A DNA stretch of 64,000 nt from positions 1 through 64,000 of the IMG/VR virus record IMGVR_UViG_3300005519_000001. One strand, given 5' to 3'. How positions within the stretch are numbered: position 1 is the first letter of the stretch; each line of letters starts with the position of its first letter. A program made the translations under genes and the position numbers. Positions 1,895-64,000 of the stretch are shown here, piece by piece. This stretch comes from a virus. The notes below the pieces were generated by a model. The model was given only the letters and a program-made list of their open reading frames with translations. It ran no database searches and was not told the origin of the DNA.

Positions 1895-2059
1895 GGTCGT
1901 CCTCGTTTTTAGTGGTCGGCAGTTTAGCGCTGGTCACATCGCTCGGTCTAGTCCCGCCGCTCTGGTCAAAGCCTACGAAATATAAGCCTTGAATGTCTAC
2001 CCCTATTAGAGCGCATTCACTCCACGCGCAGCATACGACCTACGAGGCTGGCTTACAAC
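1895..2059. other. intergenic, no gene seen
   Basis: This short non-coding gap separates the end of the leftward late operon from the small membrane protein gene. I see no convincing terminator hairpin with a T-run and no repeat. Confidence 0.5.
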
Positions 2060-2446
2060 TCAGGTCGTCGCACGTCCATTGCCCCAATGCGACCAACCGA
2101 AGGCGCGAACGCCTAACCACATGACTTGTCGGGTCAGCCACGAGACGCCCGTTAAGGCTGACGCCTCACGCAGAATCGCATCCGCCGTCTTGCGATCCAC
2201 GATATGCGTTGAGTACGCGTAGTCATGGATGACGCTGGCCATGTTGGCAACGCCGCCGGCGAAGTCGTAGACGAAGGGGATTCTAGGCGTGCTCGCCAAG
2301 TCAGTAACGAATCCGGCCGGGACGGTGATCGTTAGATTCGCCACGTCAGACTGATAGACCAGTTGAGCGTTCAGCCGCCAGGTCGCCGGCCTATCCTTGA
2401 TCAGGTCGGCGTCTAACACGTCATACGGCTCGACGAACGCACTCAT
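2060..2446 (-). CDS. DUF1353 family phage protein
   Basis: A 128-residue protein with the DUF1353 hallmarks: FVTDLASTPR near residue 46, then HDYAY near 72 and an ADAILREA segment. The family is common at phage lysis or late-operon ends and has no proven function; conserved Asp/His residues suggest a hydrolase-like fold. Its start overlaps the stop of the upstream lipoprotein gene (ATGA), so the two are co-translated. It is the last late gene on this strand. Confidence 0.85.
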   Translation of the reverse strand: MSAFVEPYDVLDADLIKDRPATWRLNAQLVYQSDVANLTITVPAGFVTDLASTPRIPFVYDFAGGVANMASVIHDYAYSTHIVDRKTADAILREASALTGVSWLTRQVMWLGVRAFGWSHWGNGRATT

Positions 2447-2865
2447 ACACCGCTCGCGGCCGATGCTGGATCAGCAGTAGCCGGCAGCGAAGCCAGTACG
2501 CTCGACAACACGATTTGCGCAACCGTTAGGTCGATGCCGATCTTCGTCTTGTCCTGGTCCGAAAGCGGCGATGCGTTGACGACGGCCATTACGGCCGGCA
2601 ATGCCGTTGCACCGAGCGACTTCAGATCGGCGACGTTCACGCTCGAGCCAGCAGAGCAAACGGCAGCCACAATCGGCGCTGCGTCGGCGAGCTTGGCCTT
2701 GGCATCATCGCTGAGACCGACGACGGCTTGCAGAGAGGCAATTGCGGTTTGCGTCGGGGGGCATACCTGCGCAGCGATTTGAGCGGGAGTTTTGACGGTG
2801 CCAGTGGTAGCGCAGCCGGAGACGAGCGCGACAAGGCCTGCCGCGAGCAGCATGAATTTACGCAT
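2443..2865 (-). CDS. phage lipoprotein
   Basis: A 140-residue protein with a type II signal peptide: MRKF, then a hydrophobic core, then lipobox LVSGC with Cys at residue 18. The mature part is Ala/Val-rich and helical. AAGGA precedes the ATG. It lies in the lysis end of the late operon next to a second lipoprotein. An outer-membrane spanin role is possible from location, but the sequence does not show it. Confidence 0.75.
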   Translation of the reverse strand: MRKFMLLAAGLVALVSGCATTGTVKTPAQIAAQVCPPTQTAIASLQAVVGLSDDAKAKLADAAPIVAAVCSAGSSVNVADLKSLGATALPAVMAVVNASPLSDQDKTKIGIDLTVAQIVLSSVLASLPATADPASAASGV

Positions 2866-2875
2866 GGTGATGTCC

Positions 2876-3178
2876 TTACTTGAGGATTTTGGCGGCTGAG
2901 ATAGCCGTGTTCGAGATAGCGCCGGCGACGTCCGATGCGACAGCGCTTGCTTGAGCCTGACCTTGAAACGCGGTCACACCGGTTTCTTGGAGGGTGATGA
3001 CGTAGCCTGTTGGTGTCTGCGCAAACATCGCATTGACCGATTGCGCCTCTTTGCCGCTATGGATCGTGATCTCAACTCCGTCCGTCAGAGTGACTCGGTA
3101 GTCGGACTCGCCGGCATACCAGATGGAAGCGCAGCCGCTGAGTGGTACGCACAGTAGCGCCGCGGCTAGGGCTTTCAC
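2876..3178 (-). CDS. second small phage lipoprotein
   Basis: A 100-residue protein with a short signal peptide and lipobox PLSGC (Cys at about residue 16). The mature part is a beta-rich segment (YRVTLTDGVEITIHSG) followed by a Gln/Ala/Ser helix. It overlaps the upstream small membrane gene by ATGA. Two adjacent lipoproteins after an endolysin could include an o-spanin, but no matching inner-membrane partner embedded in frame was found. Confidence 0.75.
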   Translation of the reverse strand: MKALAAALLCVPLSGCASIWYAGESDYRVTLTDGVEITIHSGKEAQSVNAMFAQTPTGYVITLQETGVTAFQGQAQASAVASDVAGAISNTAISAAKILK

Positions 3179-3369
3179 GCTGCGGGCGGCGTTGATGCCG
3201 AAGGCTTCAGCGTGTGATACAGGCCCAGGCCGATCAGTCCGTCCTTGATGTAGTCAACGAACGAAGTCGCATCGGCCTTGCCCGTATAAACGAGGTATGC
3301 CCACGCGCCAAACAGGACGGCGCCAATCAGCATCTTTTGGGTCGCGGGGGAAAGGTTGCCGAGGGTCAT
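3175..3369 (-). CDS. small membrane protein, holin candidate
   Basis: A 64-residue protein with one clear membrane span (about residues 13-30, MLIGAVLFGAWAYLVYTG) and a weaker hydrophobic stretch near 44-54. A GGAG precedes the ATG. It is in the lysis region, downstream of a terminator hairpin and coupled to a lipoprotein gene. Size and location would suit a holin, but this is inference only. Confidence 0.65.
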   Translation of the reverse strand: MTLGNLSPATQKMLIGAVLFGAWAYLVYTGKADATSFVDYIKDGLIGLGLYHTLKPSASTPPAA

Positions 3370-29790: not shown

Positions 29791-32547
<2,757 letters not shown>

Positions 32548-63241: not shown

Positions 63242-63997
63242 ATGAATGAGCTTTCACTCTTCACAGGCGCTGGCGGCGGAGTGCTTGGAACCCGTTTGCT
63301 CGGATGGCGCCCTGTCGGATATGTCGAATGGAATGACTACTGTCAGCGCGTCATTGCAGCGCGAATCCGAGACGACATGTTGCCTGCCGCCCCAATCTTC
63401 ACTGACGTGCGTCAGTTCGCACAGTCCGGTGCAGCCGACCAGTACCGAGGAATTGCGGAGGTGGTTACAGCAGGCTTCCCCTGCCAGCCGTTCTCGCTCG
63501 GAGGAAAGCAGCTCGGAGAAGCCGACGAGCGAAACATGTGGCCCGCAACGGCAGATGTCATTCGCCGTGTTCGACCGCGATGCGTGCTGCTGGAGAACGT
63601 CACAGGGCTCATTGTTTCTGGATACCTCGGAACAGTGCTCGGTGATCTGGCCGCGATGGGGCTGGATGCGCGATGGGGAGTGCTGGGAGGCAACCACATT
63701 GGAGCCGCCCAGCGTCGAGAACGAATCTGGATTCTTGCCTACGCCAAGGGCGAGCGTTGGAACGCACGGAATCTGTTGGAAGCGGGCCAAGAGTGGCGAT
63801 CACCGCAGTCAGATCGAGGATTACCTCGCCTGGCTAAGCCTCAATCATGGAGGCCAAGTAGTTTCGGGGCGCACAGTGAATGCGGAATTCCAGGATTGGC
63901 TGATGGTGTGGCCGCCAGCGTGGACCGACTTAAAGCCTCTGGCAATGGACAAATTCCAGCAGTGGCTGCGGCAGCATTCACCATCCTCTCACGCTGA
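63242..63997 (+). CDS. C5-cytosine DNA methyltransferase
   Basis: A 251-residue protein from the ATG at 63242. Motif I LFTGAGGG, motif IV GFPCQPFS with catalytic Cys81, motif VI LLENV and motif VIII QRRERIW are present; the end has GNGQIPAVAAAA, like motif X. It methylates cytosine C5. From about 63660 onwards an overlapping frame also looks like a methyltransferase-family C-terminus, so the true 3' end is uncertain. Confidence 0.85.
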   Translation: MNELSLFTGAGGGVLGTRLLGWRPVGYVEWNDYCQRVIAARIRDDMLPAAPIFTDVRQFAQSGAADQYRGIAEVVTAGFPCQPFSLGGKQLGEADERNMWPATADVIRRVRPRCVLLENVTGLIVSGYLGTVLGDLAAMGLDARWGVLGGNHIGAAQRRERIWILAYAKGERWNARNLLEAGQEWRSPQSDRGLPRLAKPQSWRPSSFGAHSECGIPGLADGVAASVDRLKASGNGQIPAVAAAAFTILSR

Positions 63998-64000
63998 AGC
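63666..64000 (+). CDS. overlapping frame resembling a methyltransferase C-terminus (partial)
   Basis: This frame is open from before 63666 to the window end. It has LPTPRASVGTHGICW, HRSQIEDYLAWLSL and FQDWLMVWPPAWTDLKPLA, a pattern seen at the ends of phage cytosine methyltransferases. An ATG at 63666 is possible. It could be a separate overlapping gene or the true end of the methyltransferase after a frameshift. Confidence 0.45.
   Translation, partial: MRDGECWEATTLEPPSVENESGFLPTPRASVGTHGICWKRAKSGDHRSQIEDYLAWLSLNHGGQVVSGRTVNAEFQDWLMVWPPAWTDLKPLAMDKFQQWLRQHSPSSHAE

Follow-up and report, generated by a model that had tools for sequence, protein, structure and literature searches.

A single stretch of phage DNA most probably encodes, in two overlapping reading frames, both chains of a C5-cytosine methyltransferase: an alpha chain that would carry out catalysis and a beta chain that would supply target recognition and motif IX. 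Judging from sequence comparison, we put the probability of this reading at about 0.86. Comparison with relatives shows that both frames are kept by selection, that constraint is divided between them, and that their dual start is conserved; we infer that both proteins are produced and form one complex, with beta reading the target, and that phage DNA is methylated.

The window (the whole stretch of DNA that was analysed) covers bases 1-64000 of a virus record of 68,542 bases. Reading on past 64000 in the rest of the record, as had been suggested, shows that frame B runs from the ATG at 63246 to a stop at 64005-64007 (253 aa) and ends 7 nt beyond the window. The original prediction was right that both frames are open here, but its figure of about 330 nt for the overlap is too short; the frames overlap over about 750 nt, the whole gene. 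The features of the locus are as follows.

63242-63997, + strand: putative alpha subunit gene (frame A), 251 aa, with motifs I-VIII and X; motif IX is absent from frame A
63246-64000 in the window, + strand: putative beta subunit gene (frame B, +1), identified by its ORF, phrog_1008, stop depletion and selection
63242-63248, + strand: dual start ATGAATG, with the alpha ATG at 63242 and the beta ATG at 63246, 4 nt apart
63260-63280, + strand: alpha motif I (FTGAGGG), AdoMet binding (alignment A1)
63473-63496, + strand: alpha motif IV (GFPCQPFS), with the catalytic Cys (A1; P80, C81 and Q82 invariant)
63593-63601, + strand: alpha motif VI (ENV) (A1; E118 and N119 invariant)
63710-63736, + strand: alpha motif VIII (QRRERIWIL) (A1)
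63537-63761, + strand: beta conserved segment (CGPQRQMSFAVFDRD...WPRWGWMRDGECWE...LPTPRAS) over alpha motifs VI-VIII (alignment A2; both frames constrained)
63747-63872, + strand: variable region, assigned as the target-recognition region (constrained in frame B only)
63873-63932, + strand: beta motif IX (TVNAEFQDWLMVWPPAWTDL) (alignments A2 and A5)
63941-63979, + strand: alpha motif X (GNGQIPAVAAAAF) over the beta tail (MDKFQQWLRQH) (A1, A2; both frames constrained)

The locus is preceded by a gene encoding a YqaJ recombinase domain and followed, close to the end of the record, by a phage integrase, so the source is probably a temperate phage. No second C5-methyltransferase was found elsewhere in the virus record.

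The two peptides on which the original prediction was built are both found, in two frames of the same DNA. Frame A ends in VDRLKASGNGQIPAVAAAAF, which is motif X-like, and alignment A1 places motif X in this frame; frame B over the same DNA reads LPTPRAS...EDYLAWL...WLMVWPPAWTDLKPLA. Homologues in only one frame had been named as the result that would speak against the idea, and we found them for both: frame A matches Pfam PF00145 (8e-30) and phrog_363 (2e-53), with M.HhaI as its best solved relative (residues 4-168, phmmer), and frame B matches phrog_1008 (2e-18). Alpha carries motifs I, IV (PCQ), VI (ENV) and VIII of PF00145. Motif IX, motif X and the recognition region do not occur together in one chain: X is in frame A, IX and the variable region are in frame B, and only the two frames together supply the full set of C5-methyltransferase motifs. 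This complementarity of the C-termini, with motif X in one and the recognition region and IX in the other, was not part of the original prediction.

To place the locus among its relatives, we gathered 261 loci, by scans that used either frame or alignments of it as query and, for some loci, from annotated phages; one beta alignment, A3, was too diverse to serve as a scan query. In 248 of the 261, the alpha N-terminal part and motif X lie in one frame and the two conserved parts of beta in the +1 frame, all uninterrupted; this is not a prevalence figure, because the search itself selected loci that resemble this pair, and the set contains contigs more than once (of the genes with a complete alpha 5' end, 201 are distinct). 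Cultured phages with this layout infect Stenotrophomonas, Pseudomonas, Vibrio, Salmonella, Acinetobacter, Mycobacterium, Microbacterium, Synechococcus, Microcystis, and Bacteroides. In five loci (L281, L282, L335, L337, and L342), motifs X and IX or alpha's own frame are shifted by one, which may reflect indels or other frame layouts.

We scored nucleotide changes by their effect in each frame, both in the window's clade and in 20 independent pairs of relatives. Across the 20 pairs, constraint changes hands along the gene. In the first half, frame A is constrained and frame B is near neutral (wB NN/NS 0.88 [0.63-1.15]); over motifs VI-VIII, both are constrained (wA 0.14-0.28, wB 0.23-0.48); from VIII to IX, frame B is constrained (wB 0.15-0.25) and frame A is free (wA 0.83-1.37), with one wB estimate of 0.25 [0.16-0.33] standing alongside a wA of 1.37; and over IX and X, both frames fall below 0.5. 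The window's clade repeats this mosaic, with a wB of 0.04-0.06 in the variable region. Alignment A1 reveals frame A to be unconserved in both sequence and length between VIII and X, and alignments A2 and A5 reveal frame B to be conserved from VIII to X among relatives of a common recognition type. Purifying selection acts in both frames, which is what characterizes an overlapping (overprinted) gene. This supports real dual coding, one of the explanations first offered: relatives exist for each frame, both frames remain open in divergent phages, and each, in its own parts of the gene, is held by purifying selection.

The start region is conserved as well. Where the alpha N-terminus reads xN[ED], the AAT codon for Asn is kept together with the beta ATG in 78 of 80 relatives; elsewhere in these genes, AAT makes up 43% of Asn codons. 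AAC at alpha codon 2 would abolish the beta ATG, and in the two genes that have AAC this ATG is lost and upstream stops are present. The upstream half of frame B is open in 82 of 89 genes with an ATG or GTG at +4 and in 9 of 25 without such a start (upstream stops occur in 16 of these 25), counts that are not phylogenetically independent and for which a tree gives only 4 independent contrasts on well-supported branches. Measured against synonymous shuffles of alpha in 114 non-redundant genes, a null that fixes the alpha protein and codon usage and does not keep codon-pair bias or relatedness, the upstream half of frame B holds 42 stops vs 194 expected. It is stop-free in 91 of the 114 genes vs 21.7 expected, and the other 23 genes carry all 42 stops (62.5 expected).

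Where Shine-Dalgarno-like motifs are present, they lie a median of 4 nt from the alpha start and 8 nt from the beta ATG; near such spacing, E. coli ribosomes can initiate at both members of a pair of neighbouring start codons (PMC9841429). The window gene itself has a weak ribosome-binding site. All genes with upstream stops still have an in-frame start ahead of the conserved part of beta or inside it, and in two of them (L035 and L123) beta could start only at codons 88-94 or later, which therefore bounds functional beta. In most genes, one ribosome-binding site seems to serve both chains, which begin at the dual start nTG-AATGA; in a minority, beta seems to be started internally, within alpha.

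These observations bear on the possibility that programmed +1 ribosomal frameshifting fuses alpha motifs I-VIII to the recognition region and motif IX of beta in one chain. The order of the parts on the DNA, motifs I-VIII followed by the recognition region and IX in the +1 frame, does fit a shift near VIII. A single shift, however, would lose motif X, which lies downstream in the alpha frame and is strongly constrained, and a shift near VIII needs neither the start codon at +4 nor a frame B that is stop-free over its first ~100 codons in those 91 genes. For these reasons we regard frameshifting as unlikely.

The relatives with other arrangements help to identify what beta contributes. In the single-chain enzyme of Mycobacterium phage Moonbeam (gp69; L042, about 1233-2333), the elements PTPSA...LHPAFPEWMMGWPAGW...GNGVVP all lie in one frame, and the motif IX of beta resembles the LHPAFPEWMMGWPAGW that this relative carries in its alpha frame. 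In L191 and L192 (about 2001-3250), alpha ends after VIII, and beta, still overlapping, has the recognition region, IX and X; these two show an AquI-like split and look like an intermediate form. The Moonbeam gene also has a beta-like +1 ORF, at about codons 40-219 and ending in GRLPREFNDWAELPMSWQP and a stop, which is possibly a relic of the two-frame form.

Could beta instead have originated by overprinting as a separate protein with a function of its own, such as regulating or inhibiting alpha? The link of beta to the enzyme is comparative, and beta has its conserved segment over VI-VIII, for which we know of no counterpart in single-chain enzymes. Yet beta supplies the constrained recognition region and motif IX that alpha is without, and L191 and L192 bear motif X on beta too, in the AquI-like manner. 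Every beta found sits on an alpha gene: a scan with the beta N-terminal segment alone returned 80 loci, 72 with the same layout, and no free-standing beta gene was among them, each overlapping an alpha. A separate function is thus quite improbable. Sequence and profile searches of the PDB with beta gave no credible match, and AlphaFold, run twice on beta without its partner, gave poor models (mean pLDDT 55 and 52), an outcome compatible with a subunit that would fold on its partner. Since the models are poor and no solved structure matches, the recognition-domain role of beta rests on position, motif IX and selection.

Long overlapping ORFs are frequent in this G+C-rich window, which is a caution for similar findings; as one example, 29791-31716 (-) overlaps 29794-31152 (+), and antisense or overlapping long ORFs are expected from G+C-rich codon usage. 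When the codons of frame A in the window gene are shuffled synonymously, frame B stays free of stops with p ~0.13 over the first 105 codons and 0.02 over the rest. With such ORFs so common and these p values, the window sequence on its own is only suggestive of dual coding. The comparative counts speak to whether frame B is an untranslated by-product of codon bias and the amino-acid constraint on frame A. Under the same shuffling null, the conserved part of beta has 1 stop vs 382 expected in the 114 non-redundant genes, and the third frame shows no depletion (1663 stops vs 1481 expected). Two-frame openness is likewise seen where A+T content is higher (L013, L035, and L041 are examples), and from VIII to IX frame B is conserved while frame A is unconstrained. 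Alpha conservation does yield some +1 similarity: because L271, with motif IX in its alpha frame, also shows a beta-like +1 signal, part of the beta likeness over VI-VIII could be induced in this way. All told, we consider a by-product very improbable. On the comparative stop counts, we reject a chance ORF arising from G+C content.

Least credible is another explanation first offered, that an indel or sequencing error in this contig alone broke up what was a normal single-chain methyltransferase. Single-chain relatives with the recognition region, IX and X in one frame do exist (Moonbeam is one), but hundreds of separately assembled contigs share the +1 arrangement, as do cultured phages, and we therefore reject this explanation. 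With motif X in frame A and IX in frame B, moreover, one indel could not bring the parts back into a single chain.

A two-chain C5-methyltransferase is the most likely reading because alpha has motifs I-VIII and X, beta has a variable region and a motif IX resembling that of Moonbeam, and L191 and L192 are AquI-like. In such an enzyme, alpha (frame A) would provide AdoMet binding and catalysis through motifs I-VIII, plus motif X, with its middle part an unconstrained spacer, and beta (frame B, +1) would provide the target-recognition region and motif IX. The conserved beta segment over alpha motifs VI-VIII may be a contact with alpha. In most relatives, as in this phage, a single ribosome-binding site at nTG-AATGA would start both chains, the N-terminal half of beta after the dual start being a translated leader of unconstrained sequence; in a minority of relatives, beta would start inside alpha. 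The enzyme would methylate phage DNA, for example against host restriction.

The small chain of M.EcoHK31I is encoded within the large-chain gene in a different frame, and beta is likewise nested in the alpha gene, in the +1 frame. According to PMC3404938, M.EcoHK31I (YGGCCR; Lee, Kam and Shaw 1995, as cited there) is a two-polypeptide C5-methyltransferase that needs both chains, the large one with motifs I-VIII and X and the small one with IX, and it and M.AquI (CYCGRG) are working natural two-chain enzymes. By the motif layout described there, our locus is like M.EcoHK31I, with I-VIII and X in alpha and IX in beta. The same paper places the predicted target-recognition domain of M.EcoHK31I on the large chain; here, unlike there, constraint on the variable region is confined to the frame of the small chain. 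The present genes also differ in belonging to phages and in an overlap that, in most of them, runs from a dual start along the entire gene. Like M.AquI, they are naturally split after motif VIII into alpha and beta; unlike M.AquI, whose beta has the recognition domain, IX and X, they keep motif X in the alpha frame, and only L191 and L192 look like M.AquI. When C5-methyltransferases are divided between VIII and the recognition domain, their parts show efficient complementation (PMC5944983). Single-chain enzymes such as M.HhaI and Moonbeam gp69 have the same motifs I-X, but in one frame and one chain; the in-frame PTPSA...LHPAFPEWMMGWPAGW of Moonbeam gp69 resembles the PTP...motif IX of beta.

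Two other kinds of overlap invite comparison. Like our locus, the ShiLan-type out-of-frame HNH endonuclease involves overlapping frames in phage methylase genes, but as described in PMC11855218 it is a mobile insertion encoding an endonuclease, whereas the second frame here encodes part of a methyltransferase. AUGUG and GUGUG dual starts in E. coli and the lambda holin/antiholin also yield two products from close starts (PMC9841429); the AUGUG starts are 2 nt apart, whereas those here are 4 nt apart and would give two long proteins in different frames that form one enzyme. We found no description of this phage two-frame arrangement in the open-access literature searched, and no mention of a dual-frame methylase in the available portions of PMC11855218; REBASE curators may know the arrangement.

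Database records capture one half of the pair. Those examined annotate only alpha or only beta, never both; beta alone is annotated, with the alpha frame omitted, in SOVA965 (L038), phPA-G (L040), and Vibrio phage 1.236.O (L263), labelled as a hypothetical protein or as a DNA-cytosine methyltransferase. Pieces of beta are scattered over PHROGs 1008, 16143, 26627, 35493, 27243, and 31772, three of them with unknown function.

More tentatively, and with the odds in our view slightly against it, a one-gene, two-frame design may have become fixed in a large phage enzyme family, with one ribosome-binding site and the dual start nTGAATG giving both subunits at once, about 65 codons over VI-VIII encoding, in the second frame, a newly evolved conserved beta segment that docks on alpha, and recognition modules therefore exchangeable in one frame without touching the catalytic frame. 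If the two-chain reading is true, many phage cytosine methyltransferases are annotated by half, and cloning one annotated frame with altered codons would be expected to yield a dead enzyme. With dual-start, internal-start, AquI-like, and single-chain forms together in it, this methyltransferase family is a test bed for gene overlap.
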